Under the pieces are notes generated by a model that saw only the letters and a program-made list of their open reading frames with translations, did no database searches and was not told the DNA's origin. Positions 16,207-33,406 of a stretch of DNA of 47,483 bases are shown one piece after another. Positions within the stretch are counted from its first letter, which is position 1; every line of letters begins with the position of its first letter. The DNA is from Dehalococcoidales bacterium. GTDB taxonomy: Bacteria; Chloroflexota; Dehalococcoidia; Dehalococcoidales; CSSed11-197. The translations under genes and the position numbers were made by a program. The stretch is from contig JAQUNW010000007.1 of the NCBI GenBank assembly GCA_028717385.1, positions 1 through 47,483 of the forward strand. Reading direction: 5' to 3'.

Positions 16207-16492
16207 GAGGATGAGTGTATCCTTTTTGTCTTCCTTGAAAAGGGCTTATACACGATGAAGGATCTTCCCCATAATAGTGCCCGTTGTAACAGGGGAGCTT
16301 TTCCGTATGTACGGGCTCAACTTGTGTGAGACCCTTCGCTGCGCTCCAGGGTGACACTTTGTTGTTGTTTGCTGTGTCATCATATTTTAATTGGCATAAT
16401 TTTCCACGCTTTAGTTTTAACAATACTTCTCCATCTGTCCTATCTTGCGCTTTCGATAGAATGAAATCGCATATTGTGCAAACCGTAAAAAA
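16207..16492. other. Intergenic region with weak terminators and a REP-like repeat
   Basis: 286 bp between convergent queA and the CPBP gene. AGGAT/ATCCT followed by a T-run starts just after the queA stop, and TCCCC...GGGGA followed by GCTTTT lies near 16266-16307. Both are weak terminator candidates. A REP-like element is listed separately. I see no coding signal. Confidence 0.45.
16328..16356 (-). repeat. REP-like dispersed repeat unit
   Basis: On the minus strand it reads TGTCACCCTGGAGCGCAGCG followed by AAGGGTCTC. This belongs to the style of short TGTCA..CTGAGCG.AGCGAAGG intergenic repeats scattered in many Chloroflexota and deltaproteobacterial genomes. Only one copy lies in this window, so repeat status rests on resemblance. 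Confidence 0.45.
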
Positions 16493-17236
16493 TCAAGCAA
16501 CAGTTAAAGCTGTAAACAGATAACCGGTCCCAACCATGATGACGTTGCTAAAACTGTGCATGAGCGCAGGATATACAATACTCTCGGTTTTTTGGTATAC
16601 AATCCCTTGTATAGTTCCAAGTATAACCGCATACACTAATTGAAAACTATCAACCTCAAAGCTAAATGGCGCCAATGACCAATTTAAATGGGCAAAAGAA
16701 AACAGGATCGAAGCCATGATGACTTCTACGGTAAAGCTTTTCCTGATTTGTATGCTTCGTCCAAATGTATAGACTAAAATGGTTATAGGCAATGCTCGAA
16801 ATATCACCTCTTCAGAAGGACCGCTTAAAAATAACTGGAATCCTATAGTTCCCAAGATGTTCCGGCAGTCTAACGGAAAGGCATAAGTTGGTAGCTGATT
16901 ATTAAGACTCAAAAACAAGTGGAGCATAATAGCAGCAAATGCAAAGACTCCAGTAAATATAGCAACATATTTTGTACCTTTTCTTATATTGCCTAGCTTC
17001 AGGTAGAAATCGATTTTTAACAACTTGCCCAGCGCGATGATTATTATTAAAGCGAAGACCATTTGGGCAAAATGATGGACGGAAATACTCGCAAAAGCAT
17101 CGTGCGGATCAATTTGTGCATACGAAAACTGATTTGCAACAAAATGCCCCGCTTTTCCTAATAATACTTGTGTCGCGAGTAAAGCAATAAAAGTAGCACC
17201 GGTATACAAAATCCTGTTAAGGGGGAGCTTTTCCAT
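16493..17236 (-). CDS. CPBP family intramembrane glutamic endopeptidase
   Basis: Membrane protein of 247 residues with about seven hydrophobic segments. The CPBP (Abi/CAAX protease-like) motifs are all present: GPSEEVIFR with Glu142-Glu143 and Arg147, FSFAHLNW with His183, and HSFSN with His227. These form the active site in Rce1-like proteases. Bacterial members act in prenyl-protein-like processing, bacteriocin self-immunity or unknown roles, and the target here cannot be told. The ATG has GAGG nine bases upstream. It is a single-gene unit, convergent with queA. Confidence 0.85.
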   Translation of the reverse strand: MEKLPLNRILYTGATFIALLATQVLLGKAGHFVANQFSYAQIDPHDAFASISVHHFAQMVFALIIIIALGKLLKIDFYLKLGNIRKGTKYVAIFTGVFAFAAIMLHLFLSLNNQLPTYAFPLDCRNILGTIGFQLFLSGPSEEVIFRALPITILVYTFGRSIQIRKSFTVEVIMASILFSFAHLNWSLAPFSFEVDSFQLVYAVILGTIQGIVYQKTESIVYPALMHSFSNVIMVGTGYLFTALTVA

Positions 17237-17549
17237 ATGACTAATACCTCATTTTCTATACTATTTTTGGCAAGCTTATTAACATAATTCGTATTTATAC
17301 TCATAATTGAGAATTTCCGGTGCTTAATACAAATTGTGATATTGTACTCCTTGATGAAGCATTAATGCTAGATAGAAATCCACTTAATTAAAAATAAAGG
17401 CCAATTAGTAATAAAAAATTTTCACACACAAGCGCGGTGACTCAAGAACGATAAACCTTATCTATAATACTTAATGTATGAATAATAATGTTTTAGGCAT
17501 TGGCGGAATGGAATTTGTTATTATATTAGCCGGGGTTTATTAAAACATA
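17237..17549. promoter_or_regulatory. AT-rich divergent intergenic region with candidate GNAT promoter
   Basis: 313 bp, strongly AT-rich, between the divergent CPBP and GNAT genes. For the plus strand TTGGCG (17500-17505), a 16-bp spacer and TATATT (17522-17527) form a plausible promoter 22 bp before the GNAT ATG. No other structure or reading frame stands out. Confidence 0.4.
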
Positions 17550-18041
17550 ATGAATGTAATTGTTCGGTCGTTCACGCGCGAAGACATCCCTGCGATGATT
17601 CAAATCTGGAATAAGGTTGTTGAAGAAGGAAACGCATTCCCGCAGGATGAATGTTTAACTCCAGAAACAGGTTATGCCTTTTTTTACCAGCAATCCTATT
17701 GCGGTGTTGCCCAAGATCTGGAAAGTGGAATACTCTACGGCTTGTACATCCTTCATCCCAATAATGTTGGCAGGTGTGGTCATATATGCAATGCTAGTTA
17801 TGGAGTATATCCTGAAAGCAGAGGAAAGCACATCGGCGAAAAACTGGTAAGCGATAGCCTTATTCAAGCCAGACGGCACCAGTTTAAAATACTCCAGTTT
17901 AATGCTGTAGTTGCAAACAACGCCTCGGCGAGGCGATTATACGAGAAGCTTGGTTTTAAGCAACTTGGCACGATCCCCGGCGGCTTTCGCATGAAAGATG
18001 GACATTATGAAGATATCTGCCCATATTACATTGTTCTTTGA
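17550..18041 (+). CDS. GNAT family N-acetyltransferase
   Basis: 163 residues with the GNAT fold. The acetyl-CoA loop is ESRGKHIGEKL (R-G-x-x-I-G type) and the C-terminal NNASARRLYEKLGFKQLGTIP is the usual motif B. Relatives with the GRCGHICNASYGVYP pattern are annotated as phosphinothricin- or amino-acid-type acetyltransferases, but substrate is not predictable. It ends 84 bp before the GntR-type regulator on the same strand. The ribosome binding site is weak. Confidence 0.82.
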   Translation: MNVIVRSFTREDIPAMIQIWNKVVEEGNAFPQDECLTPETGYAFFYQQSYCGVAQDLESGILYGLYILHPNNVGRCGHICNASYGVYPESRGKHIGEKLVSDSLIQARRHQFKILQFNAVVANNASARRLYEKLGFKQLGTIPGGFRMKDGHYEDICPYYIVL

Positions 18042-18125
18042 TTTTCTTGTCAGCGGATTGGAGTGCCTGACAACTCTCTTTAAGACCATTTACATAAATT
18101 ACTCAAACCTGATACACTTTTCATA

Positions 18126-19289
18126 ATGACAATGGATGCTTTCATAAAAAAGATATATATAAATTTTCGTTCTTCTAAACCGATATATCGGCAATTAGTC
18201 GAGCAAATACAAAAGCTTGTTATAACAGAACAAATAGAACAAGGCGACCACCTTCCCTCCATTCGACACTTGGGGAATAAGTTAAATATTAGCCCTAATA
18301 CTGTCGCAAGAGCTTACCTGGAACTGGAACGCGAACAAATAGTGGTTACAAAAAGAGGAGGCGGAACCATAGTATCCGCAAGCAGGGATGAGCAGCTTTT
18401 ACGGGAAATACGTGCAAAACACCTGCAAAGCAATGTATCCAAGGATATTGTTCGGATGCTTGGCCAGGGGTACAAGCTCGATGAATTGGAAGCAGCTTAC
18501 TTGTTAGGAATTAACCGGTGGAAGGAAGAATTTGAGTCAGCTTCCACTACGCCATCTATTACGAATATTGAAGGCGATAGTGGCGAAACATTGCGTATAA
18601 CAGGCAGCCATGATATCGCTTTAAATATCTTGATAACTTTGTTCAAACAGTATTCATCCAACATTAAAGTTGAAGCCAGCCATGTAGGAAGCCTGCGGGG
18701 CTTGATAGCTTTAGAAGAGGATACTGCCGACATAGCAGGAATCCATTTGTTAGACGAAGAAACAGGTGAATACAACATTCCTTTTATTAAACGCATATTA
18801 CCAGGGCAAAAAATGGTAGTTATTAATTTGGTATATCGCAAACAAGGTTTGTTGTTTGCACCAGGAAATCCTAAAAACATTGGCGGCTTGGGTGATCTTG
18901 CCAAATCTGACATAAGGTTTGTAAACAGGCAAAAAGGCTCCGGTACCAGGGTATTATTGGATTTGGAGTTGAAAAGAACGGGAATTGATGAGAGAGACAT
19001 TTGTGGATTTGATATAGAGATGGACAATCATCTCGCAGTTGGGCTTGCGATAGCTCAAGGAAGAGCTGATACAGGTTTGGGTATTGCTGCAGCTGCTCAT
19101 AGTTGTGGATTGGGTTTTTTACCATTATTTAAGGAGCGGTATGATATCGTAATGCCCGCAAAAACGTTTGATAGCAAGAAAACAGACCTTCTTATGAGCA
19201 TCATCTCCGGATCCGAGTTTAAAAAGATTGTGAGTGAAGTTGAAGGCTACGACACGTCCAAGACCGGCTCGGTGATGGAAGTTTCATAG
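18126..19289 (+). CDS. GntR-HTH regulator with PBP-like (molybdate-sensor-type) domain
   Basis: Two-domain transcription factor of 387 residues. Residues ~15-90 form a GntR winged helix (PIYRQLVEQIQKLVI, LPSIRHLGNKLNISPNTVAR, then the wing). From ~150 on is a periplasmic-binding-protein-like domain of the type Pfam calls PBP_like (LRITGSHDIALNILITLF, HVGSLRGLIALEEDTADIAGIHLLDEETGEYN, RQKGSGTRVLLD). Similar domains sense molybdate, tungstate or small organic anions in cytosolic regulators. It lies 260 bp upstream of the formate dehydrogenase operon on the same strand, so control of that Mo/W enzyme is the natural guess. Ligand and target are inferred. Confidence 0.82.
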   Translation: MTMDAFIKKIYINFRSSKPIYRQLVEQIQKLVITEQIEQGDHLPSIRHLGNKLNISPNTVARAYLELEREQIVVTKRGGGTIVSASRDEQLLREIRAKHLQSNVSKDIVRMLGQGYKLDELEAAYLLGINRWKEEFESASTTPSITNIEGDSGETLRITGSHDIALNILITLFKQYSSNIKVEASHVGSLRGLIALEEDTADIAGIHLLDEETGEYNIPFIKRILPGQKMVVINLVYRKQGLLFAPGNPKNIGGLGDLAKSDIRFVNRQKGSGTRVLLDLELKRTGIDERDICGFDIEMDNHLAVGLAIAQGRADTGLGIAAAAHSCGLGFLPLFKERYDIVMPAKTFDSKKTDLLMSIISGSEFKKIVSEVEGYDTSKTGSVMEVS

Positions 19290-19430
19290 GTTTACAGCAA
19301 ATTATTTATTAGAACAGCTTTTTGTTACGCTAATCCTTGTATTCTCTTCGGTTAATATAAATTCTTCCCCTGCATATTTTAAGAATAATAATCATCGTGC
19401 AAAACACCTGAAACATCTATCTGAATTTCT

Positions 19431-19475
19431 TTGACATCACCCTTTTCTTTAATGTAGTATTTGTACAATTACAAA
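19431..19475 (+). promoter_or_regulatory. Candidate promoter and dyad of the formate dehydrogenase operon
   Basis: TTGACA (19431-19436), 18-bp spacer, TAGTAT (19455-19460). A small dyad TTTGT-6-ACAAA (19460-19475) covers the expected start and may be an operator. The first gene starts at 19549 behind AGGAGG, leaving a leader of ~80 nt. Confidence 0.5.
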
Positions 19476-19548
19476 GAGACAGTTTGGTATTATTTCTATT
19501 CTGCCACCTGGCTTGATCGAATAAAAATATATTATACAGGAGGTATAG

Positions 19549-20346
19549 GTGCCGGATAAAGCTATATTGTACGATATGTCTCGGTGTACTGCCTGTCGCG
19601 GTTGCCAAGTATCTTGCAAGCAATGGAATGATAAAGCGGCAGAGGAAACCAATAACTGGGGTTCTTACGAAAATCCGAAAGAACTCTCATCAGCAACTTG
19701 GCTGAAAATGCGCTTTTTCGAGATCGAAAGAGAAGGCAAATTCGATTGGCAGTTTATTAGAAGGTCTTGTATGCATTGCACCGATGCTGGTTGTGCGGAA
19801 GTGTGCCCTGTTGGTGCTATCTTCCATACAGACGAAGGCTTTGTAAACATTGACCAAGAATGGTGTATAGGTTGTGGAACTTGTACGCAGGCTTGCCCCT
19901 TCCATGTACCTCATCTCGATCATCACGAAGGCATCGTCAGCAAATGTAGCGCATGCACAACTTTAGGTTTTGATCGAGTATCACAAGGCTTGAGTCCAGC
20001 TTGCGCGAAATCCTGCCCCACAGGTGCTTTAGAGTATGGAGAAAGGGATGTTTTGTTAGAAAAAGGCCGCAGCCAAGTACAAAAACTCAAGGCTACAGGT
20101 CACGTAAACGCCATGTTGTACGGAGAACATGAACTAAGCGGCTTGCATGTTTTGTATGTACTTGACGATAAACCGGAAGTATATGGGCTGCCTGAGAATC
20201 CACAGATGCCAACCAGTGACATGATCAGTAAATGGCTTGCTGGTCTAGCTACGGCTGGTGTTTTGTCTACATTGCCGCTGATATGGATTTTTAAACGACG
20301 CGAAGAAATGATAACTAAAAACAAAGCCAAGGAGGGCACTGTATGA
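19549..20346 (+). CDS. Formate dehydrogenase iron-sulfur subunit (FdnH-like)
   Basis: Electron-wire subunit of 265 residues with four [4Fe-4S] clusters: C13-x2-C16-x2-C19-x3-C23, C74..C86 (CMHCTDAGCAEVC), C106..C116 (CIGCGTCTQAC), and the CSAC/CAKSC pair at 133-156. One transmembrane helix near 225-245 (WLAGLATAGVLSTLPLIWIF) ends in KRR, as in FdnH, anchoring it on the outer face of the membrane. The start is GTG at 19549 with AGGAGG six bases before. It overlaps the membrane-subunit gene by 4 bp. Electrons would pass from the Sec subunit to the NrfD-like anchor. Its place as first gene of the operon is unusual, since FDH-N operons start with the catalytic gene. Confidence 0.9.
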   Translation: MPDKAILYDMSRCTACRGCQVSCKQWNDKAAEETNNWGSYENPKELSSATWLKMRFFEIEREGKFDWQFIRRSCMHCTDAGCAEVCPVGAIFHTDEGFVNIDQEWCIGCGTCTQACPFHVPHLDHHEGIVSKCSACTTLGFDRVSQGLSPACAKSCPTGALEYGERDVLLEKGRSQVQKLKATGHVNAMLYGEHELSGLHVLYVLDDKPEVYGLPENPQMPTSDMISKWLAGLATAGVLSTLPLIWIFKRREEMITKNKAKEGTV

Positions 20347-21287
20347 GCATTTCTGATATGCCCTGGGGAATTACTCTGTGGCTTGATTTGTGGTGTGTAG
20401 GCATTGCAAGTGGTGCTTTTATGAATGCATTTGTCATTGATAAGCTGAGTTCGGGGACCCAGCGAAATCTTTTCCGTTTTGCGGTTCTATCCGGTCTTGT
20501 TTTTGCCTTCATAGGTGTGATTTTATTGCTATCTCACCTTGGTCACATTTTGTGGTTCTGGCACATGTTTGTAACAATCCGACCGCAATCAGTACTCTCT
20601 CTTGGCGGTTGGATTCTCTCTTTGTGGCTCGCTGTTGCGGGTATTATGGCTGTACTGTGGGTGGTTGAACACTATATTTCGAACAATATTTTGGTTAAAA
20701 AAATAAATGGCGTTTTGTCTTGGGTTGGATTTGCTTTATCAATCCTTCTCATTACCTACGGTGGTGTTTTGATTGCTACCACCAACCAGCCACTGTGGGC
20801 GAATACCCTACTGCTACCTTCTCTATTCATAGGTTCGGCTTTATGCACCAGCGTTGCATGGCTGATCATTTTGTCTTATATAGTTAATTGGCTGGGAAAT
20901 AAAAATATCAAGCCTCTAGATTGGTTAATCACCCGTTTCACTGATTCGAGTGACTATACCATTAATAACAATGTCGTAGCCAAGCTTATAAAAGCGCTAT
21001 TTGTTTATCTGGTAATTGAAATTGTGATTCTGGCAGCTTTCATGGTTTGGTTATGGTTTACAGCTGAATCTGCATTTACTCAACTCGTTTTTGGTGAAAT
21101 GGCAGTCTATTTTTGGGCTGGACTCGTAGCGTTGGGGCTGGTGCTCCCGCTAGCGCTATTAGGTATTAACCGGTGTAGAAATAAACTAATGCAGATCCCT
21201 CCAGCATTAGCAATTTCGTCCGCAGGGTTAGCTTTTATCGGGGGTTTGGTATTAAGGGCGGTCTTGCTTGTTAGCGCTCAGCTTTAG
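20343..21287 (+). CDS. NrfD/PsrC-type membrane subunit
   Basis: 314 residues with eight or nine hydrophobic segments, in the pattern of NrfD/PsrC quinone-interacting anchors (early WGITLWLDLWCVGIASGAFM, HLGHILWFWHMF, PALAISSAGLAFIGGLVLRAV near the end). It replaces the haem b subunit FdnI of E. coli, so no cytochrome b is expected. NrfD anchors exchange electrons with menaquinone or pass them to a partner complex. In Dehalococcoides mccartyi an NrfD anchor (OmeB) pairs with an FdhA-like subunit (OmeA) inside the organohalide-respiration complex. It overlaps the Fe-S gene and lies 32 bp before the catalytic gene. Confidence 0.87.
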   Translation: MSISDMPWGITLWLDLWCVGIASGAFMNAFVIDKLSSGTQRNLFRFAVLSGLVFAFIGVILLLSHLGHILWFWHMFVTIRPQSVLSLGGWILSLWLAVAGIMAVLWVVEHYISNNILVKKINGVLSWVGFALSILLITYGGVLIATTNQPLWANTLLLPSLFIGSALCTSVAWLIILSYIVNWLGNKNIKPLDWLITRFTDSSDYTINNNVVAKLIKALFVYLVIEIVILAAFMVWLWFTAESAFTQLVFGEMAVYFWAGLVALGLVLPLALLGINRCRNKLMQIPPALAISSAGLAFIGGLVLRAVLLVSAQL

Positions 21288-21319
21288 CTCATTAGATCAT
21301 TTAAAAAATTGGAGGAAAT

Positions 21320-24300
21320 ATGTCAATTAATCGTCGAGAATTCTTAAAGGGTTCTGGAAAGGTTTTTGCCGGTGGTTTAGCGTTATCAGCGCTGGGCATC
21401 GACGTTCGCCCGATAAGAGTACATGCCAGCAAACTGGAAAAGCTTGAAAAAATTAAGACAAGTGTTCAGACAACTACTACCTGCTGCTATTGCTCGTGCG
21501 GGTGTGGGTTGATTTGTAGCACTGATTCTAATGGCGAAATCATCAACATTGAAGGCGATCCTGACCATCCTATCAACGAAGGTGCACTATGCCCCAAGGG
21601 TATGAATTTGAAGGAAACCTCGGCTTCCAATCCACATCGCCTGTCAAAGGTGCTCTACCGGGCACCTTACAGTGAAGAATGGGAAGAGAAAGACTGGGAT
21701 TGGGCGCTGGACCGTATGGCTCGGAAAATTAAAGATATCCGAGACGCGGATTTCATGACTACCAACAGCAAGGGGCAGAATGTCAACCGTGTCGAAAGCC
21801 TGGCTTTTCATGGCAGTTCCAATGTTAACAATGAAGAATGCTTCATGATGTACGAATTTGCGAGGTCGCTAGGCCTGGTGTATCTGGATCACCAGGCACG
21901 TGTCTGACACGGCCCAACTGTACCGGCTCTGTCAGAGTCGTTTGGGCGTGGCGCAATGACCAACCACTATATTGATCTCAGAAATAGTGATGTATTCCTG
22001 GTTCAGGGCAGTAATGTTGCTGAACACCATCCCCTGGCTATGAAATGGATCATGAAAGCAAAAGACAGAGGGGCGAAGATGATACATGTTGACCCCAGAT
22101 TCACACGTACTTCGTCCAAAGCGGATATTTATGCCCGGCTGCGTTCCGGCACCGATATAGCTTTTCTGGGTGGCATGATCAAGTATATCCTCGACAACGA
22201 AAAGTACCATAAGGATTATGTGATTAACTATACCAACGTTTCTCAAATAGTTGGTGATGATTTCGATTTCGAGGATGGGCTTTTCGTTGGTTACAATCCG
22301 GAAACCAGGACTTATGACAAATCGAAATGGGCTTATAAATACAATAATGATGGCACCCCGGCAACCGATGCCACCCTACAAAATCCCCGATGTGTTTTCC
22401 AACTGCTAAAGGAGCATTATTCGCGTTATGATCTGGCTACAGTTTCTTCCATTACCGGTACTCCGGAAGAGGATTTGCTGAAAGTTTATGAAACTTACTC
22501 TTCTACCGGGACAGCTAACAGATCTGGAAGTATTCTTTATGCACTCGGACAAACCCAGCACACAACAGGAGTTCAGAACATACGCACAATGTGTATGATT
22601 CAGCTTCTTTTGGGCAATATCGGTATTGCCGGTGGAGGAGTCAATGCCTTGAGAGGAGAGCCAAATGTACAGGGCTCCACTGATTTCGCATTGCTGTATC
22701 ATTATCTGCCTGGATACTTAAAGGCACCAAAAGCATCACAACCTACTACTGCTAAATACCTGGAAGACAATACTCCAACAACCAAGGTGGCTAAATCAGT
22801 CAACTGGTGGCAAAACTACCCCAAGTATTTGATAAGTCTTCTAAAAACCATGTTCGATTCAGCTGCAACTGCAGACAATGATTTTGGCTATGCCTGGTTG
22901 CCTAAAATTGATGATACCCAGAAAGCTGACGCATTAACCATGATAGACCACATGTACAAAGGCGGAATCAAAGGGTATATCACTGCTGGCACCGACCCAT
23001 GTGTGAGCATGCCTAATGCGAATAAGTTGCGCAAAGCTATGGCAAACCTCGATTTATTGATTCATTCAAATATTTTCGATAATGAAACCGCTTCGTTCTG
23101 GAAGGGGCCAGGCATGGATCCCAGTCAGGTTAAAACCGAAGTCTTCCTGCTGCCCGCTTCTGCTTCGGTCGAGAAGGATGGAAGCCAGAGCAACAGCGGC
23201 CGCTGGATACACTGGAACTACGCCGCAGGCAAAGCTCCAGGAGATGCTATTTCGGTTGGCGAAACATTCTGGAAACTGATGGGCAGGATAAAAGAACTGT
23301 ACCAGAATGAAGGAGGAGCTTTACCCGAGCCGATAGTAAACCTTAAATGGGACTATGATGAAAATGGAAAGTGGAACGCTCTGAAGGTCTGCAAAGCTAT
23401 TAATGGTTATTTCCTCAAGGATACCACTGTTAATGGCATTGAGTATAAACAGGGCGACCTTGTGCCCGGGTTCCCCAGTCTGCAGTCTGATGGTTCTACC
23501 TCGTCAGCTTTGTGGGTGATGTGCGGGGCATTTACCAAGGATGGCACCAATTTGATGGCCAGACGTGGCAAGGAGGACAAGACCGGTCTAGGTATGTATC
23601 ATGACTGGGCTTGGTGCTGGCCGATGAATCGCCGCATCATCTACAACCGTGCTTCATGTGATCCGAATGGTAACCCCTGGAACTCTGACAGGGTAGTAGT
23701 AAAATGGGAAAATGGAAATTGGGTCGGCGATGTCGTTGATGGCGGTGGAGCACCACTCAACGATCCTAATGGCAAACTGCCGTTTATTATGCAAGCTAAT
23801 GGTATGGGTTGTTTGTATGGACCTGGACTTGACGATGGTCCGTTCCCCGAACAATACGAGCCTTTGGAAGGGCCTTTTGCCCAGAACATAATGTCAGGCC
23901 AGTTGAATAATCCTGTTATCAAACTCTACACTGGCGAAATGGATCAAGTTGCCAACGCCTCACCGGATTATCCAATTGTACTGACTACCTATTCTTGCAC
24001 GGAACACTGGTGCAGTGGAGCAATTACCAGGTGGCAATCCAACCTGACGGAGCTTATGCCTGAAGCTTATGTGGAAATGAGTGAAGAACTGGCAGCCGAA
24101 AAAGACATCAAGAACGGTGAACGGGTAGTACTTGAATCAGCCAGGGGAAAATTGGAAGTAGTTGCCATGGTTACCAAGCGCATGAAACCTATGCAATGCG
24201 GCGGCAAGACGATCCATCAGGTAGGTTCAACCTTCAATTATGGTTGGCTGTTCCCCAAGGATTGCGGAGACACCATTAACTTGCTTACCACTAATGTGGG

Positions 24301-24361
24301 CGATGCCAATGCCCAAACACCAGAATACAAGGCTTGCATGATCAACCTTAAAAAAGCTTAG
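21320..24361 (+). CDS. fdhA: Selenocysteine-containing formate dehydrogenase catalytic subunit
   Basis: Oxidises formate to CO2 at a Mo or W bis-MGD centre, on the outer side of the membrane. The reading frame has an internal TGA at 21905-21907. The two parts (195 codons before; 817 after, resuming in the same frame) give 1013 residues, against 1015 for E. coli FdnG. The TGA is codon 196, as in FdnG, and is flanked by DHQARV and HGPTV..., then FGRGAMTNH, the FDH-N selenocysteine site. A hairpin follows at once. The N-terminus has a Tat motif NRREFLKG and a [4Fe-4S] site C55, C58, C62, C91. An automated caller would split it into a short truncated gene and one starting at 21956. GGAGG precedes the ATG. 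D. mccartyi's homologue has serine at this site. Confidence 0.93.
21905..21950 (+). promoter_or_regulatory. Selenocysteine codon and bacterial SECIS hairpin
   Basis: TGA (21905-21907) is followed at once by a hairpin. CAC and GCCCAA pair with TTGGGC and GTG (nine pairs, one bulged G). Above them is an internal loop and a six-pair apical stem GGCTCT/AGAGTC with loop GTC. Position, size and the G-U in the apical loop fit SelB-binding bacterial SECIS elements, while the same bases still encode the conserved HGPTV...SFGRG peptide. Confidence 0.88.
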
Positions 24362-24391
24362 CAAATAGTTACTGTTAATTGAATATAAATG

Positions 24392-24432
24392 CGCGTAGCT
24401 CTATTTCGTTGAGATTAAAATAGAGCTACGCG
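24392..24432 (+). repeat. Perfect 15-bp hairpin between fdhA and fdhE
   Basis: Arms 24392-24406 and 24418-24432 are perfectly complementary (CGCGTAGCTCTATTT with its reverse complement) around an 11-nt loop. No T-run follows on either strand, so it is probably an mRNA-processing or stability hairpin that sets the ratio of structural to accessory gene expression. It ends just before the fdhE ribosome binding site. Confidence 0.75.
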
Positions 24433-24449
24433 TCAGCGGAAGGGTAGTA

Positions 24450-25340
24450 GTGAACAATCATAAAGACGATGTTAAGCTAATTGGATTAGCTTTCGACGAC
24501 ATAGAAAAAAATACACCTAGTTTGAAGCCAGTTGTAACGGCTTTTCGTGAATTGTTCGTTAGCCGGGCGATTATGAAAGCCGCCATTACCGATATTCCTG
24601 GTTTATACATCCCTGAGCCTGATAAAAAAAAGCTATCCCAGGGTTACCCTTGGCTGACCGAACAAAATGTTGCTTCATTGGTTGATCCTTGGGGAAATAA
24701 CATAATAAGCGTTTCAAATTCAATAGCAGACGCTTTTCCAAAGATTAAACCAGATATGTTGAACCTCGTGAATTCCATAGAGAATGGAGATACTGAGTGG
24801 GGCGAATATGTTGTTTCTTTCATCGAAGGTGATGAGGACAACCTTGGATTGTTGGCTGATCAAATTAGAATTCAATCATCATTATTAAAATTTATTCTTT
24901 TCAATCTTATTAAACCATTCGTCGAGAAGAGGGTAGAAAACCTCAAAGAAAGTATAAAAGAGATTCCATGGTTTGAGGGATATTGCCCTATATGTGGAGC
25001 ATTTCCGGAACTTAGCATTTTACAGGGTAAAGAGGGCCAACGATGGCTGAAGTGTTCGTTCTGCGGGTACGATTGGCGGTACGACCGGATGACATGCCCT
25101 TTTTGTGGAGAAAAGGATGAGCATAAGGAAGTGCTTTCCATTGACGGAAATGACCATAAATGGGTGGAACTCTGTTCTTTATGCAATAGGTATATCTCAA
25201 ACATTGATCTCAGAGAAAATAAAAACATGAGAGCGGATATTGCTGCAATTGGAATGATACATTTAGACGCGATAGCTCAGAAGAAAGGATTCATTCCTAC
25301 GGCTGACTGCAGCTGGAAAGTGATAACACCTCTTTCGTAA
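24450..25340 (+). CDS. fdhE: Formate dehydrogenase accessory protein FdhE
   Basis: Cytoplasmic maturation factor needed for FDH-N/FDH-O type enzymes. 296 residues: a helical N-terminal half, then four CxxC pairs forming rubredoxin-like metal sites (YCPICGAFPELS, CSFCGYDWRYDRMTCPFCG, ELCSLCNRYI). GTG start at 24450 with GGAAGGG upstream. Presence of a dedicated FdhE argues that the enzyme is a real Tat-exported Sec formate dehydrogenase. It lies 88 bp after fdhA, beyond a strong hairpin. Confidence 0.9.
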   Translation: MNNHKDDVKLIGLAFDDIEKNTPSLKPVVTAFRELFVSRAIMKAAITDIPGLYIPEPDKKKLSQGYPWLTEQNVASLVDPWGNNIISVSNSIADAFPKIKPDMLNLVNSIENGDTEWGEYVVSFIEGDEDNLGLLADQIRIQSSLLKFILFNLIKPFVEKRVENLKESIKEIPWFEGYCPICGAFPELSILQGKEGQRWLKCSFCGYDWRYDRMTCPFCGEKDEHKEVLSIDGNDHKWVELCSLCNRYISNIDLRENKNMRADIAAIGMIHLDAIAQKKGFIPTADCSWKVITPLS

Positions 25341-25409
25341 AGCTGTATTCATTTTCGCTAACACGGTTAGATGTAAATATTAACAATATGAAAGGCTTCG
25401 TAAATAAGA

Positions 25410-26027
25410 ATGATTAATCAGCAAAGCTGCTCTTCGATTAATAGTCAATTAGTAGAAAGATTTGGCTCTTTCACGAGAGAAGAATTTATGGATCGGGCTA
25501 AGTCTTTCCACGGTTGCATTTCCCCCGGGGTGCTGGTTGGCGGAATTATGGTTGATAGTGCTATGGAGCTCTTGCCACAAGGCACCTTATTTGATGTCAT
25601 TTGTGAAACCCGCTCATGTTTGCCTGACGCGGTGCAAATACTGACACCATGCACTATTGGAAATGGATGGCTCCGCATATTGGACTTCGGGCGGTATGCA
25701 GTGAGTTTATATGATAAGCATCAAGGTGATGGATTTCGGGTTTTTTTAGATCCGGCTAAGCTAGATCATTGGGACGAAATAAAAACATGGTTTTTAAAAT
25801 TAAAACTCAAACATGACCAGGACAATGTGCGTTTGAAGGAACAGATTCTAACGGCGGGGAAGGAAATATGCACAATCCAACCGATACACGTTAAAAGTGG
25901 CTTCAGAACCAATCGGTCAAAAGGAATAATCAATGTATGCAGCATTTGTGGTGAAGCATATCCAGCGAAAGACGGTTTAATCTGTTTAGGCTGCCAGCAA
26001 GAGCTGCCGTTTCGTATTAGAAATTAA
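25410..26027 (+). CDS. FmdE-domain protein with C-terminal zinc finger
   Basis: 205 residues. The N-terminal FmdE domain (FHGCISPGVLVGGIMVDSAM, near residues 33-52; ETRSCLPDAVQILTPCTIGNG) is shared with subunit E of formylmethanofuran dehydrogenase. The C-terminal ~30 residues carry CSICGEAYP...CLGC, a treble-clef-like zinc finger. In bacteria such genes commonly sit beside Mo/W formate dehydrogenases, and a role in metal or cofactor insertion has been suggested but not shown. The usual HGH is HGC here. It closes the FDH operon, 69 bp after fdhE. Confidence 0.83.
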   Translation: MINQQSCSSINSQLVERFGSFTREEFMDRAKSFHGCISPGVLVGGIMVDSAMELLPQGTLFDVICETRSCLPDAVQILTPCTIGNGWLRILDFGRYAVSLYDKHQGDGFRVFLDPAKLDHWDEIKTWFLKLKLKHDQDNVRLKEQILTAGKEICTIQPIHVKSGFRTNRSKGIINVCSICGEAYPAKDGLICLGCQQELPFRIRN

Positions 26028-26871
26028 AAAGTCCGCCTAAGACAACAGATGCAATACATGTGCTTTTGCAGCACATCCTGTTCTGACCCGTAACAATATT
26101 TCATCTTTCCCAATAACAGTTGAATGCTAAAAGAGTACTGTTTGTAAAGCAAGCTATTTGATCCAGATCTAGCATCAGGCACAAGTTTTACTTTCGTAAT
26201 ATAATTTATCATAAAAGATATATTATTATTAATAAAAATGACGCTTTGCTGTTCGAGACATTATACTAACCACAATCTTGGGTAGTGTCCCGTCAAGTGG
26301 TGTAAATTGCCACCGGTGATGCATCAGATATCTCAATACGGGAATTCTTTGAGAATCACGAACTGCCTTATATTACCACACCATTCGATATTACGACGCT
26401 TCTTTGCAATATCAACGAAATGTTATCCAGGGACTGACCTTATAAATTGTTGTAACAGCTACACTTCTCACGATACTATTCAGTATCAACCTTATTACGA
26501 TTCCTGTTCTTGAGGAATTCTATATTATCGGATAATAGCCGTATCTCATCTTCGTTTAATTCATCGATCCGGTCAATCCTTGCTCAAGCAGCATCCATGA
26601 ATGATGTAATTTGGGAGCCGGGCATTTCGCTTTACCGGAGGCAGGCGATAAAAGAACATATAAAAACCAGGCTTGCAGTGATACCGACAATCGCAAGTAA
26701 ATTGCTGCGAATTATGAAGCTGCGGGTAGAAGAAAACACCCTTTGAATTCTGCTGGCTACCAGGATAACTCTTAATATTCATAACAATCGTAACTAGCGC
26801 AAGACGACGGGTATTATATGTATTGCCCCCCTGCAAAGTAAAAAACCACTGCCGGGGTAGCAGCCAGTGAA
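26028..26871. other. Gene-poor decayed region
   Basis: 844 bp with no intact gene on either strand; only short frames without ribosome binding sites. It contains a possible insertion-sequence end near 26282-26312. Two broken minus-strand coding fragments follow: one ends near 26346 and reads KRRNIEWCGNIRQFVILKE; the other, 34 codons near 26480-26590, reads ARIDRIDELNEDEIRLLSDN and is preceded by a stop. The composition and broken frames suggest an old mobile-element insertion in decay. Confidence 0.45.
26282..26312 (+). mobile_element. Possible solitary insertion-sequence end
   Basis: TAGTGTCCCGTCAAGTGGTG with the following TAAATTGCCACC resembles the terminal repeats of IS256-type (mutator) elements. 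I see no matching inverted copy or intact transposase in the window, so at most it is a remnant. Confidence 0.3.
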
Positions 26872-26878
26872 TTAAAAA
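26841..26878 (-). terminator. Terminator of the zinc-ribbon protein gene
   Basis: On the minus strand CACTG and CAGTG pair around a GC-rich loop and are followed by GTTTTTTA, right after the gene's stop codon region. The stem is short but the T-run is good. Confidence 0.5.
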
Positions 26879-27402
26879 ACGTAAAGTACCAGCAAGGCGA
26901 CGATAATAATTATAATTATAAGACTTAAACCAACCAGGAGAGCAATTTTAAGGGCACGTTCTTTACGTTTCCAATCATCGCTCATTTCAGTCTGTGCTTC
27001 CAGCGCCTGAATTTCTTCAGGAGAAAGATCGGCATACTCTGCCCACTGCCCATAAAGGCGACGCATTTTACGTTCCGAACTGAATAGATAGGTGAGAAAA
27101 CGGGTTATCTTATCTGCTATTTGCTTGAACCCGGAAGAACCGGCAGGCTGGTCTGAGTAAACCTGGAAATTGTTCGATAACGCTTGTGGGCGTTCCTTTC
27201 GTTTGCTCTTTACAGCCAGTTTTTTGCCGCATTTTGGGCAAAATAGCGCACCCGGAACGAGCTCTTGCCCGCAATACGGGCAATAGGCCAAGTTTATAGA
27301 TGGTTGTATATCATTAAGGTCCTGGCCGCAATAGGGGCAGAACGTTACATCTGAAGCAAACATAGCGCGGTCGATGTGCTCACCGCATTTTGGACATTCC
27401 AT
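26872..27402 (-). CDS. Zinc-ribbon protein with C-terminal membrane anchor
   Basis: 176 residues. The N-terminal 60 residues contain three or four CxxC knuckles (MECPKCGEHID, TFCPYCGQDL, YCPYCGQEL, LFCPKCGKKL), typical of double zinc-ribbon domains. A basic, poorly conserved middle follows. A single transmembrane helix of repeated Ile/Val/Leu closes the chain (about residues 152-174). It is a tail-anchored cytoplasmic zinc-ribbon protein; no specific function is known. It lies downstream of nrdG with an 84-bp gap. Confidence 0.75.
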   Translation of the reverse strand: MECPKCGEHIDRAMFASDVTFCPYCGQDLNDIQPSINLAYCPYCGQELVPGALFCPKCGKKLAVKSKRKERPQALSNNFQVYSDQPAGSSGFKQIADKITRFLTYLFSSERKMRRLYGQWAEYADLSPEEIQALEAQTEMSDDWKRKERALKIALLVGLSLIIIIIIVALLVLYVF

Positions 27403-27486
27403 CCAGACCTCCAGTTGACAGCCAGAATTTGTTCTATTTTAGCACGGACTTGTGAGTAATTGAAGCCGTGTGATAGAACGAGCGGA

Positions 27487-28173
27487 TCAAGTAATTTTAC
27501 CATCCACACCTTGCTCAATTGCAATCGACAATAATTTTTCCATTTCTGCTTCAGAGTAAGGTTGAATTAAAGTGTAGGCTGGATCAATTGTATTTACCGG
27601 TCGATACTGTTGCAAGATTAGTTTTTCGTTTGTGCCCACCAAGCGGCAGATAGAAAGGATTTCATCTGCGCTTACCAGAGAGGGAACACAAGTGGTACGG
27701 AATTCATGGGAGACATTTGAGTTCTGTAATAGAGTAATACTTTTTTGTATAGCAGAAACATCGGCTTTTACGCCAGTGGCCTCACGATAACGATGCAAGG
27801 CGGTTTTTATATCCATCGCAACATAATCAATTAATCCCTGGTGATTCAGCCGTTCCAAAACGTCAGGCAAGCTTCCATTGGTATCCAGTTTTACCTTGAG
27901 ACCAAGTCTTCGGATCTGGCGTATAAAATCTTCAAGTTCCGGCCAGAGCGCAGGCTCTCCGCCGGTAATGACGACACCGTCACAAAGGCTTTTGGCTTTT
28001 TCAATTCGTTTGAGGATGGTATCAATGGAAAATTCCTCAGCAAGGCCGGGGTGTAAAACCAAGTCAGCATTATGACAGAATGGGCAGCGAAAATTGCAGC
28101 CCCCCACAAATACCACCGGGGCAATAAGTCCCGGATAGTCGATCAGCGAGAGGTCTTTATAACCGTTTATCAT
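27487..28173 (-). CDS. nrdG: Anaerobic ribonucleotide reductase activating protein
   Basis: Radical SAM enzyme that makes the glycyl radical on NrdD under anaerobic conditions. The cluster motif CNFRCPFC (Cys26, 30, 33; CxxxCxxC) is near the N-terminus after SLIDYPG. VVITGGEPAL and VKLDTNGS follow, as in the pyruvate formate-lyase activase-like NrdG group; 228 residues. It starts 6 bp after nrdD and would be co-transcribed with it. Confidence 0.92.
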   Translation of the reverse strand: MINGYKDLSLIDYPGLIAPVVFVGGCNFRCPFCHNADLVLHPGLAEEFSIDTILKRIEKAKSLCDGVVITGGEPALWPELEDFIRQIRRLGLKVKLDTNGSLPDVLERLNHQGLIDYVAMDIKTALHRYREATGVKADVSAIQKSITLLQNSNVSHEFRTTCVPSLVSADEILSICRLVGTNEKLILQQYRPVNTIDPAYTLIQPYSEAEMEKLLSIAIEQGVDGKIT

Positions 28174-28179
28174 AAAGGC

Positions 28180-30303
28180 TCATGCAGCAATGCTTTCCAG
28201 CATGTTTTCACTGAAAAGATGTCTTTCTGAAAATTCCTCCTGCTTGCCCTTGTTCCATTGTCGTACCGGGCGAAAATAGCCGACCACTCTGGAGTAGACC
28301 TCAGTTTCATGGTTGCAGGTAGGGCATTTGGGATTTTCCCCGTTTAAATAACCATGATTGGGACAGATTGAGAATGTTGGTGTAAGGGTGAAATATGGCA
28401 GGCGGAAGTTCCTGGCGGTCTTCATTACCATTTGCTTTGCCATTTCAGGATCGTGGATACGCTCTCCCATAAAGCAATGGAATACGGTGCCTCCGGTATA
28501 AATCGTTTGCAATTCATCTTGATGTTTCATAGCGTCCACAAGGTCGATATCGGCATCAACCGGCAACTGGGAAGAATTGGTGTAATAAGGTTCTTTTTCG
28601 CCAGCTGATATGATACGACTAAATCTTTCGCGATCTAATTTTGCCAAACGGTATGTAGCACCTTCACCCGGAGTGGATTCCAGATTGTAGAGATTGCCAG
28701 TGGTTTCCTGAAATTCGGCTAAAATTGCCTTCATATAATTCAATACCTCTTTGGCAAAAGCCGAACCGGATGATGTTGTGATATCTGTTCCCATGAAATT
28801 TAGTATTGCTTCGTTCATGCCTATAAGCCCAATAGTGGAAAAATGGTTAGCCCAATAGCTGCCCAAACGATCTTTTATTGATTGCAAGTAACAGATTGAA
28901 TATGGGAAAAGCCCTTTCTCGGCCAGTTTATCCAGCGCTTTCCTCTTGATTTCCAGAGAATCCCGTGCAATTTCCATATTGGTACGTAGGCGGGAGAAAA
29001 AATCTTCTTTTGTTTTGGATAGATAGCCTATGCGAGGCATGTTGATAGTCACCACGCCCAAGCTGCCGGTAAGCGGATCAGAGCCGAACAGGCCGCCGCC
29101 CCTGCGGCGTATCTCCCGCAAGTCCAGTCTGAGACGGCAACACATCGAACGAGCATCCTCCGGTTTAAGGTCGGAATTAAGGAAATTGGCAAAATAGGGA
29201 ATACCATACTTGGCCGTCATCTGCCAAAGGGCGTCCAAATTGGGATTATCTGGATTAAAACCAGTGGAAATGTTATAGGTTGGAATCGGGAAGGAGAAGA
29301 TACGGCCCTTGGAGTCGCCCTCGTTCATGATCTCACAGAAAGCTCGGTTTATCATATCTATTTCTTGCTGACAATCCCCATATGTATAATCTTGGGGTGT
29401 TCCTCCAACTATGGCAGCTTCGTCCTTAAGATAGTTGGGAGGAGTTAAGTCAAATGAAAGGTTGGTAAAAGGTGTTTGGAAACCAACCCTGGTGGGAACA
29501 TTAAGATTGAATACAAACTCCTGAATTGCCTGGCGCACATCCTTATAGGTAAGGTTGTCGTTTTTAACGAATGGAGCCATAAGAGTATCGAAGTTGGAGA
29601 AAGCCTGCGCTCCGGCGGCTTCGCCCTGAAGAGTGAAGAAAAAGTTCACAATCTGGCCAAGAGCGCTTCTCAGGTGTTTTGCCGGACGACTTTCTATTTT
29701 GCCGGCGACACCAGCAAATCCGCGAATAATCAAGTCTTTCAAATCCCAGCCGCAGCAATATGGACCAAGGACACCGAGATCATGCAAATGGAAGTCACCA
29801 GAAAGATGACTTTCACGAATCTTTTCGTTATAGACGCGGGTAAGCCAATAATAAGCCAGGACATCTGAAGAAAGATATACGTTCAAGCCCTGTAGTGAAT
29901 AAGTCATATTAGAGTTTTCTTTAACACGCCAATCACTCTCTCGTAGATATTCATCTACCATAGAAACCGCTCCGGCGAGCAGTTTTTTACCATCCCGGAT
30001 TCTGGCGCGTTGTTCGCGGTAGAGAATATAAGATTTCGCCGCATCTGCGTACCCGTTTTGAATGAGCATCTTTTCTACCAGGTCCTGGACTTCTTCTACG
30101 TCTGGTACGCGTCCTTGACGGCAGGTAATTTCAAGAATACCGATGACATCGTTAGCCACCCTCTCTGCCTTGGAAAGGTCGTTATCTCCTACTGCGGCGA
30201 GCGCTTTGGTAACGGCTATGTAAATTTTGGATGCATCAAAAGGAACCACGCGTCCGTCACGTTTGGCTATTTTTTCAATCTTGCTTGTCTTAAGGTTGGG
30301 CAT
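28180..30303 (-). CDS. nrdD: Anaerobic ribonucleoside-triphosphate reductase (class III)
   Basis: Reduces ribonucleoside triphosphates to deoxy forms by a glycyl radical. The N-terminal ATP-cone (VVPFDASKIYIAVTKAL) senses dATP/ATP. The catalytic barrel includes SMCCRLRLD, and the C-terminal zinc site is formed by CPNHG...CPTC. The glycyl-radical motif SRVVGYFRPV (glycine near residue 675) stands 32 residues from the end. The start is probably ATG 30303 (707 residues): GTG at 30318 would place the AAGGAG ribosome binding site inside the gene. No aerobic reductase is present in this window, which fits a strict anaerobe. Confidence 0.94.
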   Translation of the reverse strand: MPNLKTSKIEKIAKRDGRVVPFDASKIYIAVTKALAAVGDNDLSKAERVANDVIGILEITCRQGRVPDVEEVQDLVEKMLIQNGYADAAKSYILYREQRARIRDGKKLLAGAVSMVDEYLRESDWRVKENSNMTYSLQGLNVYLSSDVLAYYWLTRVYNEKIRESHLSGDFHLHDLGVLGPYCCGWDLKDLIIRGFAGVAGKIESRPAKHLRSALGQIVNFFFTLQGEAAGAQAFSNFDTLMAPFVKNDNLTYKDVRQAIQEFVFNLNVPTRVGFQTPFTNLSFDLTPPNYLKDEAAIVGGTPQDYTYGDCQQEIDMINRAFCEIMNEGDSKGRIFSFPIPTYNISTGFNPDNPNLDALWQMTAKYGIPYFANFLNSDLKPEDARSMCCRLRLDLREIRRRGGGLFGSDPLTGSLGVVTINMPRIGYLSKTKEDFFSRLRTNMEIARDSLEIKRKALDKLAEKGLFPYSICYLQSIKDRLGSYWANHFSTIGLIGMNEAILNFMGTDITTSSGSAFAKEVLNYMKAILAEFQETTGNLYNLESTPGEGATYRLAKLDRERFSRIISAGEKEPYYTNSSQLPVDADIDLVDAMKHQDELQTIYTGGTVFHCFMGERIHDPEMAKQMVMKTARNFRLPYFTLTPTFSICPNHGYLNGENPKCPTCNHETEVYSRVVGYFRPVRQWNKGKQEEFSERHLFSENMLESIAA

Positions 30304-30344
30304 GCAATTCTCCTTCACTATGAGTTGTTATTGCAACAATATAA

Positions 30345-30361
30345 ACCACAATATATGGGGT
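30345..30361 (-). promoter_or_regulatory. Possible NrdR-box-like operator upstream of nrdD
   Basis: ACCACAATATATGGGGT resembles the ACAC-ATAT-GTGT style of NrdR boxes. A partial second ACAATATA copy begins at 30336. Spacing differs from the classical ~31 bp pair, so this is tentative. Confidence 0.3.
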
Positions 30362-30434
30362 TGTCAATAGAAAAATAACACAACATACAGAAAAATTTAA
30401 GATACATTGTCTACCAAAACATTATAATCAATAT

Positions 30435-30482
30435 TTGACAAATTGAACAAAAAGGGTATAATTGTTAGCTGAAGCTAACAAT
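30435..30482 (+). promoter_or_regulatory. feo promoter with perfect 22-bp operator palindrome
   Basis: TTGACA (30435-30440), 16-bp spacer, TATAAT (30457-30462). The palindrome ATTGTTAGCT-GA-AGCTAACAAT (30461-30482; perfect 10-bp arms, 2-bp centre) starts inside the -10 box and covers the start site. Repressor binding there would block transcription, as expected for an iron-responsive (DtxR/Fur-like) regulator of feoAB. The regulator's identity is inferred from the downstream genes only. Confidence 0.72.
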
Positions 30483-30496
30483 GTTGGGGTATATAA

Positions 30497-30733
30497 ATGG
30501 CGCTCAAAACTTTAAATGAATTGCAACCAGGAGAAAAAGGCAGGGTGATATCAATTGGCCTGAAGGGAAAATTCCGTCTTAAACTTATGGATATGGGATT
30601 GGTAAAGGGTGTCGAGATTGCTGTATTAGGTATTGCGCCGTTGGGGGATCCCATGGAAGTTAAACTAAAAGGCTTTAACTTGAGCATAAGAAAACAGGAA
30701 GCAGCCTTCATTAAAGTAGAAACCTCGGAATAG
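30497..30733 (+). CDS. feoA: Ferrous iron transport protein A
   Basis: Cytoplasmic SH3-like protein of 78 residues that assists FeoB. The pattern LNELQPGEKGRVISI...LKLMDMGLVKGVEIAV...GDPMEVKLKGFNLSIRKQEA is the FeoA domain from end to end. It precedes feoB by 18 bp and has the operator described upstream. Confidence 0.92.
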   Translation: MALKTLNELQPGEKGRVISIGLKGKFRLKLMDMGLVKGVEIAVLGIAPLGDPMEVKLKGFNLSIRKQEAAFIKVETSE

Positions 30734-30751
30734 AAAGGAAAAAACTCAAAT

Positions 30752-32782
30752 TTGGAAGGCTCAGTTTTAAATCAAGAATCGGTAGTAATAGCCCTGCTGG
30801 GCAACCCCAATTCTGGGAAAACCACGTTATTCAATAATCTTACCGGCTCGCATCAATATGTTGGGAACTGGCCGGGAGTTACAGTAGAAAAAAAAGAAGG
30901 AGTGTGCCGCTATGGTAGCCAATCTGTAAAAATCGTGGATCTGCCTGGCGTTTACAGTCTTACTGCCTATTCGCCGGATGAGGTAGTCGCACGTAATTTC
31001 ATCCTCGATGATAATCCGGATATCGTAGTAAACATCGTAGATGGCTCCAACCTCGAGCGACATTTATATTTAACCCTGCAGCTCATGGAAATGGGAGCGC
31101 CGGTTATAATGGCGCTCAATATGATGGATGTGGTGGTTGCTCAAAAACATAAAATCGATATCGGCGCTCTTGAAAAACAGCTGGGTATTAAAGTTGTTCC
31201 CATGGCGGCAAGCCGCAATGAAGGAACTCTTGAGATAAAAAAAATAATCTGCGGAACTGAAGTGTCGGGGGTTGCTTGCCCGACGCTTAAAATAAATTAC
31301 GGTCGGGATGTAGAAGCTGAAATAAAAAATCTGATACCGGTTATTGAAAAAAGCTCACTAAACAAGAAATATGCTTCCCGCTGGATAGCGGTTAAACTAC
31401 TTGAGCATGATAATGAAATAATCGATCGTTTTAAGGAAGCCGATGGGGAAAGCAGCCTCGTTCTACAGACGCTTGAAGAGTCTACCGCTCGTTTAGAAAG
31501 TATATATGGAGACGAGGCAGAGACCATAATTGCCGATGCTCGCTACGGGTTCATTTCTGGTTTAATTAAAGATATATACACCCGGCCTTCACATCAGCCG
31601 ATATCAACCACCGATAAAATAGATCGCGTACTGGTGCATCGTTGGGCGGGTATTCCGATCTTTATTGTATTAATTTTTTTGTTATTCCAATTTGTTTTTA
31701 AAGCTTCTGAGCCGCTTATGGCGGTTATCGAGGCAATTTTTGAATGGCTGGGAGATAAATCTGCTGGATTTTCCCCTGGTTGGCTTGGTTCATTAATCAG
31801 TGATGGAATAATTGGTGGCCTCGGTACCGTACTGGTATTTATACCGCCGATCTTTCTAATGTTTATCGCCATTGCTATATTGGAAGATACTGGTTATATG
31901 GCGCGGGCAGCATTCATAATGGATAGAGCCATGCACAAACTAGGTTTGCATGGGCGAAGCTTTATACCAATGATGCTTGGATTCGGATGTTCGATTCCTG
32001 CTGTAATGGCTTGCCGCACCATAGATAATCCCCATGATCGGCTTACCACTATTCTTATCAGCCCATTTATGTCCTGCGGGGCAAGGCTTCCAATATATGT
32101 GTTATTTGCCGGTGCGTTTTTTCCGCAACACCAGGGCATCGTTCTCTTCTCAATGTATATTATTGGTATCATTATTGCTGTGTTCTTTGCCTTTATATTT
32201 CGTAGGACATTGCTCAAGGGGGAATCAGCTCACTTTGTAATGGAGCTGCCCCCTTATCGGATGCCGTCATTAAAGAGTATCTTTATTCATACATGGGAGC
32301 GAGGTAAACATTTTCTAAGTCGTGCTGCAACTGTAATTCTTGGTGCTGTAATTATCATATGGTTGCTCGGCAGTCTTCCATGGGGTGTAGAATATGCCAG
32401 CCAGGATAGTGTATTAGGTACAATTGGAGGCTGGATAGCACCGCTTCTTGCGCCAGCTGGAATTGGCCACTGGGCAATTGCTGTAAGCCTAATAACCGGT
32501 TTCGTTGCCAAAGAGGTAGTAGTAGCTACACTTGGCGCCATATTACTTACGGGGAGTGGAGTACTTGGGGATGCATTGGTCAGCCAGCTCGGCTGGGGGC
32601 CTCTAAATGCTTATGCTTTTATGGTGTTTTGTTTGTTATACATACCATGTATCGCAACTATATCTGTAATACGCAGTGAAACCGGCACCTGGAGATGGGC
32701 TGCGTTTTCGGCTGGTTACACAATTGCGGTAGCATGGATTGTCTCTACTCTGATATATCAGGTTGGCAATTTGTTCGTGTAA
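30752..32782 (+). CDS. feoB: Ferrous iron transporter FeoB
   Basis: Inner-membrane Fe(II) uptake protein with an N-terminal G domain. G1 is GNPNSGKT (residues 17-24), then GNWPGVTVEKKEG (G2), DLPGVYSLTAYSPDE (G3) and NMMD (G4). A GDI-like helical spacer is followed by the membrane part with two Gate motifs (e.g. GFGCSIPAVMACRT). Length is 676. The start appears to be TTG at 30752 with GAAAGGA ~12 bases upstream; no ATG fits better before the G1 motif. No feoC follows. A bidirectional-looking terminator ends the operon. Confidence 0.94.
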   Translation: MEGSVLNQESVVIALLGNPNSGKTTLFNNLTGSHQYVGNWPGVTVEKKEGVCRYGSQSVKIVDLPGVYSLTAYSPDEVVARNFILDDNPDIVVNIVDGSNLERHLYLTLQLMEMGAPVIMALNMMDVVVAQKHKIDIGALEKQLGIKVVPMAASRNEGTLEIKKIICGTEVSGVACPTLKINYGRDVEAEIKNLIPVIEKSSLNKKYASRWIAVKLLEHDNEIIDRFKEADGESSLVLQTLEESTARLESIYGDEAETIIADARYGFISGLIKDIYTRPSHQPISTTDKIDRVLVHRWAGIPIFIVLIFLLFQFVFKASEPLMAVIEAIFEWLGDKSAGFSPGWLGSLISDGIIGGLGTVLVFIPPIFLMFIAIAILEDTGYMARAAFIMDRAMHKLGLHGRSFIPMMLGFGCSIPAVMACRTIDNPHDRLTTILISPFMSCGARLPIYVLFAGAFFPQHQGIVLFSMYIIGIIIAVFFAFIFRRTLLKGESAHFVMELPPYRMPSLKSIFIHTWERGKHFLSRAATVILGAVIIIWLLGSLPWGVEYASQDSVLGTIGGWIAPLLAPAGIGHWAIAVSLITGFVAKEVVVATLGAILLTGSGVLGDALVSQLGWGPLNAYAFMVFCLLYIPCIATISVIRSETGTWRWAAFSAGYTIAVAWIVSTLIYQVGNLFV

Positions 32783-32801
32783 TAAAGATGGAATGATTGT
32801 T

Positions 32802-32849
32802 GTTAAAACGCCCAGTTTCAGTTTATGATGGACACTTGGGCGTTTTAAC
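32802..32849 (+). terminator. Terminator after feoB
   Basis: Perfect 13-bp stem GTTAAAACGCCCA/TGGGCGTTTTAAC with a 22-nt loop. The 3' arm itself supplies the T-run and is followed by ATTTAT. It separates feoAB from hpt. Confidence 0.75.
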
Positions 32850-32869
32850 ATTTATAATGGCTTATACTA

Positions 32870-33406
32870 ATGAATATAGGTAATATAGAAAAAGACAACG
32901 TATTTGCCGATTCAAGCGAAATTGAAGCAGCAGTCGAAAGGCTGGCAGTCCGTATCAGGCAGGATTATAAAAATAAAAAAATACTTCTTATTGGCGTGTT
33001 AAAAGGAAGTTTTATTTTTCTTGCTGATCTAGCAAGAAAAATGGAAATCGATACAGAAATAGATTTTATTGGACTATCAAGCTATGGAAAGAACCGGATC
33101 AGTTCTGGTTCAGTTAGACTGTATTACGAGCCGAAAATCGAAGTTGCCGGGCGAGATGTGGTTTTGGTAGAAGACATCGTTGATACTGGGCTTTCTACTG
33201 CCTTTGCTATCAATTATCTAAACAATCGAAAAGCAAAAAGTATAAAACTGTGCGCTTTGCTAGATAAAAAATGTCGAAGGGAAGTAGAAGTCAACATAGA
33301 TTACACTGGTTTTATTGCGCCGGACCGGTTTCTGGTGGGATACGGATTGGACTATAACGAAAGTTATCGTAATTTACGTAATATAATAATTTTAGGAGAG
33401 GAATAA
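32870..33406 (+). CDS. hpt: Hypoxanthine phosphoribosyltransferase
   Basis: Salvages hypoxanthine/guanine with PRPP to IMP/GMP. 178 residues with the PRPP-binding motif VVLVEDIVDTGLS, ILLIGVLKGSFIFLADL near the start and the C-terminal DRFLVGYGLDYNESYRNL. The stop overlaps the ade ATG by one base (TAATG), giving a two-gene purine-salvage operon. Confidence 0.94.
   Translation: MNIGNIEKDNVFADSSEIEAAVERLAVRIRQDYKNKKILLIGVLKGSFIFLADLARKMEIDTEIDFIGLSSYGKNRISSGSVRLYYEPKIEVAGRDVVLVEDIVDTGLSTAFAINYLNNRKAKSIKLCALLDKKCRREVEVNIDYTGFIAPDRFLVGYGLDYNESYRNLRNIIILGEE

Follow-up and report, generated by a model that had tools for sequence, protein, structure and literature searches.

The gene fdhA, at positions 21320..24361 on the plus strand of the analysed window (a stretch of 47,483 nucleotides from one contig of a Dehalococcoidales genome), is predicted to encode the catalytic alpha subunit of a Tat-exported formate dehydrogenase (FDH) of the FDH-N type. 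Its UGA at 21905 would be decoded as selenocysteine (Sec) via a downstream hairpin, giving a full protein of 1013 residues, and we place the probability of this reading at roughly 96%. A selenocysteine fdhA is a correct but ordinary finding. The less expected part is the operon in which the gene lies, a hybrid that seems to join a native-type fdhB–nrfD pair to a Desulfobacterota-type fdhA–fdhE pair.

Reading frame and probable selenocysteine site of fdhA

The frame of fdhA was observed directly by translation. It starts with the ATG at 21320 and stops with a TAG ending at 24361, and its sole interruption is the TGA at 21905..21907. When this TGA was counted as a residue, the frame was a single protein of 1013 aa. 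Translation with table 11 gave 195 aa and a second ORF from 21956 (801 aa), just as the original prediction had anticipated for a standard annotation; its claim that the frame is intact on both sides of the TGA was also borne out. The protein matched TIGR01553 (formate dehydrogenase-N, alpha subunit) from end to end (residues 3–1012, 1313.4 bits, cut-off 814.2). It contained the Pfam domains Molybdop_Fe4S4, Molybdopterin, and Molydop_binding, and its N-terminus was Tat-type (RREFLKG).

Alignment to the annotated record of Escherichia coli K-12 FdnG placed codon 196 (21905..21907, plus strand) on the in-frame TGA of the E. coli gene, Sec196, confirming the position proposed originally. The two motifs said to flank it were present as DHQARV-U-HGPTV. 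The catalytic residues Lys94, His197, and Arg446 of E. coli FdnG corresponded to Lys93, His197, and Arg445 of FdhA, so that Sec at 196 and the Lys, His, and Arg of E. coli FDH-N (fdnGHI; PDB 1KQF) are all kept. The catalytic role of the residues at these four sites is established knowledge.

The site was conserved among homologues. Of 120 homologous site readings from aligned loci, 104 had TGA, 13 a Cys codon, two Ser, and one Asp; the readings include the window itself and, in a few cases, one gene covered by overlapping loci. Two homologues, L086 and L049, had TGC at the Sec site, the former with the whole SECIS-type hairpin sequence and the latter with nearly all of it, which suggests a recent change from Sec to Cys. 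A full-length FdhA homologue from a genome of the same order (L121), 39% identical and on a long branch, had GAC (Asp) at the site and is possibly a further non-formate derivative.

Substitutions of this kind bear on a different role for FdhA, that of an OmeA-like electron relay in an organohalide-respiring complex with no formate dehydrogenase function, which we regard as unlikely. In same-order FdhA homologues that lack TGA, the site is occupied by Ser, Cys, or Asp; those with Ser fit a Dehalococcoides protein that resembles FDH, carries Ser and lacks formate dehydrogenase activity (PMC5736913). FdnG of Dehalogenimonas has been proposed to do both jobs (PMC13390414), and the genome studied here has one reductive dehalogenase gene above its family cut-off. 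However, OmeA is marked by Ser in place of Sec or Cys, and FdhA has TGA at that position; it also keeps Sec196, Lys93, His197, and Arg445, and its operon includes an fdhE-like gene.

Downstream hairpin and selenocysteine machinery

Bacterial SECIS elements are described as hairpins that follow the TGA and end in a small, G-containing apical loop (PMC1088965). Synonymous codon diversity was computed for 91 Sec homologues and normalized to the codon usage of each amino acid. The gene-wide mean was 0.91 over 496 scored codons. Of 367 six-codon windows along the gene, codons 202–207 had the smallest value (0.19), which points to a constraint on codon choice after the TGA, restricted to these codons, such as a SECIS would require. 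The commonest codons among the homologues at these positions were GCG GCT CTG GCA GAG TCG. The window has CCG GCT CTG TCA GAG TCG, and these codons yield the hairpin CGGCUCU-GUC-AGAGUCG at 21924..21940 (plus strand), 16 nt after the TGA. All seven stem pairs were invariant in 68 distinct relatives, and the hairpin folded at -7.1 kcal/mol. Its GUC loop lies 23 nt after the TGA, in agreement with the small G-containing loop of bacterial SECIS elements, and E. coli fdnG likewise has a GUC triloop in the hairpin after its in-frame TGA. Nine other genes carried the alternative hairpin GCCA-GUU-UGGC, whose triloop also starts with G; this second type occurs in the same order.

The stem shows no covariation, being invariant among relatives of its own type; the hairpin is supported by the constrained codons and by the different hairpin found in the second group. 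Folding energy did not separate the hairpin from recodings: the window sequence alone gave a weak z-score, 25% of synonymous recodings were equally stable, and four Cys homologues were as stable as the Sec genes in the same test. For this reason, the case for a SECIS rests on the comparative codon constraint. A match to Rfam SECIS_3 (RF01989) at 21902..21960 (plus strand) reached 41.5 bits (E 1e-8 over this short interval) and fell short of the gathering score of 63; E. coli fdnG scored 84.3 bits and a Syntrophobacteraceae relative 31.7 bits, the latter also below 63.

The original prediction had a SECIS-type hairpin beginning at the base after the TGA. A hairpin is indeed present, but its start has to be moved. 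A lower stem from 21908 is possible and appears in the minimum-energy fold of 21905–21954, yet several of its pairs were standard in just 13–37% of relatives. On this comparison, the conserved SECIS is the apical hairpin at 21924–21940, not a helix from the base after the TGA. We also considered the minimum-energy fold of 21900–21960, in which the TGA pairs with 21930–21936. It was rejected because it depends on the U found at 21932 in the window, a position occupied by G in most relatives.

The assembly searched for sel genes is that of the same genome (1.37 Mb, 96% complete). The original prediction implied selA, selB, selC, and selD elsewhere in the genome and proposed a search for them and for tRNA-Sec as its check. 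All were found, selB and selC included, clustered on a second contig and each above the cut-off of its family. In order, the cluster comprised tRNA-Sec with anticodon TCA (30016–30105, 70.2 bits), selD (30170–31096, 365.1 bits), selA (31243–32583, 561.2 bits), and selB (32610–34472, 368.7 bits). The selD gene (L023 8150–9214) is itself interrupted in frame by a TGA at residue 17, which fits a selenophosphate synthase that contains Sec. Two further FDH genes of the genome contain one in-frame TGA each. A riboswitch for the molybdenum/tungsten cofactor (RF01055, 57.5 bits) was detected at L152 4524–4666, in the region upstream of the genome's second Sec fdhA; this riboswitch was not found within the window.

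The conserved site, the sel genes, and the codon constraint support the central claim of the original prediction that this TGA encodes selenocysteine. The contrary reading takes the TGA as a true stop in a pseudogene, or as a Cys codon corrupted by an error in sequencing or assembly. It is very improbable: TGA is one base from TGC or TGT, and Cys occupies the site in 13 homologous readings, but TGA is what the family most often has there, the remaining 1013-codon frame is intact, a constrained hairpin lies in the codons after the TGA, and the genome has the full sel set along with other TGA-bearing FDH and selD genes. The UGA is thus very probably read as selenocysteine, as in E. coli and many anaerobes.

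By homology, decoding would proceed at the ribosome upon reaching UGA 21905, where SelB with GTP and Sec-tRNA-Sec would bind the hairpin at 21924–21940 and insert Sec at position 196. FdhA would act as an exported molybdenum or tungsten enzyme, with Sec196 ligating the metal of the bis-pterin cofactor. Homologous enzymes likewise suggest the chemistry and its direction: together with His197 and Arg445, Sec196 would oxidize formate (or reduce CO2). The putative electron path, with an acceptor that the same comparison can at most suggest, would lead by way of the Fe-S clusters in FdhA and in FdhB to a membrane subunit of the NrfD type.

Operon composition and mixed ancestry of the subunits

Six genes were observed in succession on the plus strand. 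The first encodes a GntR–PBP_like fusion (18126..19289; Pfam GntR and PBP_like), probably the regulator of the operon. It is followed by fdhB (19549..20346), encoding an iron-sulfur beta subunit with Fer4 domains (TIGR01582 215.8 bits, below the cut-off of 334.7) and one C-terminal hydrophobic segment at residue 230, and by an nrfD-like gene (20343..21287; Pfam NrfD 66.3 bits) for a membrane subunit with about eight hydrophobic segments by hydropathy. After fdhA come genes for an fdhE-like maturation protein (24450..25340; FdhE_central above the Pfam cut-off, TIGR01562 50.8 bits and below cut-off) and an FmdE-like protein (25410..26027; Pfam FmdE 122.6 bits). The membrane gene beside fdhA belongs to the NrfD family and does not encode a cytochrome b gamma subunit like FdnI. 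An older fdhA remnant was sought upstream of fdhB and not found. In the genome search, menA remained below its cut-off.

The subunits differed in ancestry. The closest sequences to FdhA were from Syntrophobacteraceae (64% identity), whereas identity to the 156 same-order genomes and to its own paralogue was 53% or less. In trees, FdhA was nested in Desulfobacterota beside Syntrophobacteraceae, and constraining it with its own order was rejected (p-AU 2.7e-5). By match score, FdhE reached 205 bits against a Syntrophobacteraceae locus versus 104 bits against its own paralogue region. In contrast, FdhB was up to 69% identical to same-genus copies and mostly 31–46% to Desulfobacterota loci. Its tree nested it in its own genus, and a constraint with Desulfobacterota was rejected (p-AU 0.005). 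In this ancestry analysis, the Desulfobacterota set comprises the best 80 of 255 matches, the window branch is long, and phyla other than those compared are unevenly sampled. NrfD had strong matches in same-order genomes, as expected of a native-type protein, and no NrfD match was found beside Desulfobacterota fdhA genes. The apparently chimeric operon (19549–25340) was compared with the loci L025, L026, L136, and L144. In Syntrophobacteraceae, the FdhB encoded after fdhA is of another type, 34–37% identical to that of the window (L025–L027).

It is the contrast between Syntrophobacteraceae-like FdhA and FdhE and same-genus- or same-order-like FdhB and NrfD that makes the operon read as a hybrid. 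The catalytic subunit looks borrowed from bacteria of the sulfate-reducer type, and its partner subunits look native. We lean towards a working hybrid enzyme in which a Sec FdhA, acquired with fdhE from a Desulfobacterota donor, would sit on a native duplicated FdhB–NrfD membrane module to form a second formate-dependent respiratory complex, one without a counterpart in the sampled genus mates. In a literature search, nothing found appeared, from title and abstract, to concern horizontal transfer of an NrfD-anchored FDH in Chloroflexi.

The operon lies in a 10.7 kb block (16207..26871) between queA, which ends at 16206, and a zinc-ribbon gene (26872–27402). One genome of the same genus (G002; L151 2173–5146) lacks fdh genes at this site: its MTHFR-like gene, queA, and zinc-ribbon gene follow one another directly. 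In two further genomes (G003 and G004), the zinc-ribbon gene is followed by other genes. Judged by gene order, the region is a variable site, and synteny alone is compatible with a gain here or a loss there.

The same flanks bear on whether the contig came from a contaminating Desulfobacterota genome, in which case the sel genes of the assembly would not belong with fdhA. The 64% identity of FdhA to Syntrophobacteraceae, against at most about 53% to same-order genomes, would fit such an origin. The flanking genes effectively rule it out: the contig's ribonucleotide reductase gene is 94–95% identical to its counterparts in two genomes of the same genus, and the right flank is collinear with several such genomes. 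The operon's own FdhB and NrfD are also of same-order type. At 27439–30318 on the minus strand, the TGA stop of the anaerobic ribonucleotide reductase gene is in frame with the radical-SAM gene after it. This is probably a coincidence, with no sign of Sec. Elsewhere in the window, a pan RNA motif (RF01749) was detected at 12578–12670 on the minus strand (40.4 bits, above the gathering score of 36.2).

Relation to known enzymes and significance

Selenocysteine in FdnG is classical in E. coli. The novelty claimed in the original prediction was accordingly overstated, as Sec in fdhA is textbook FdnG biology. The best solved relatives of FdhA were selenocysteine FDH alpha chains (PDB 6SDR and others) and E. 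coli FDH-N. We take 6SDR and the structures related to it to be from Desulfovibrio vulgaris, whose Sec-FDH alpha chain is thus among the closest solved relatives. The E. coli alpha subunit is about 47% identical (464/992 aligned residues). E. coli FDH-N also differs in its gamma subunit, the cytochrome b FdnI, where the window has an NrfD-type protein, and the gene order fdhB–nrfD–fdhA is unlike that of fdnGHI.

A Sec-FDH, together with an in-frame TGA in the selenophosphate synthase gene and a sel cluster, has been published for Dehalogenimonas (PMC4918011, PMC13390414), which probably belongs to the same order as the source genome. Its fdn operon with selCDAB shares with the present genome the Sec FdnG, the selenophosphate synthase TGA, and the sel cluster (PMC4918011, PMC13390414). 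It differs in the alpha subunit, which is about 44–48% identical to that of the window (based on genus g51, presumed to be Dehalogenimonas).

Annotation with TGA as a stop would lose the catalytic subunit and cut at least three further genes of this genome, namely the second fdhA, the third FDH gene, and selD. If functional, the hybrid operon would be a natural swap of a respiratory catalytic subunit across phyla, with the in-gene recoding signal intact and a recipient that has its own sel genes.
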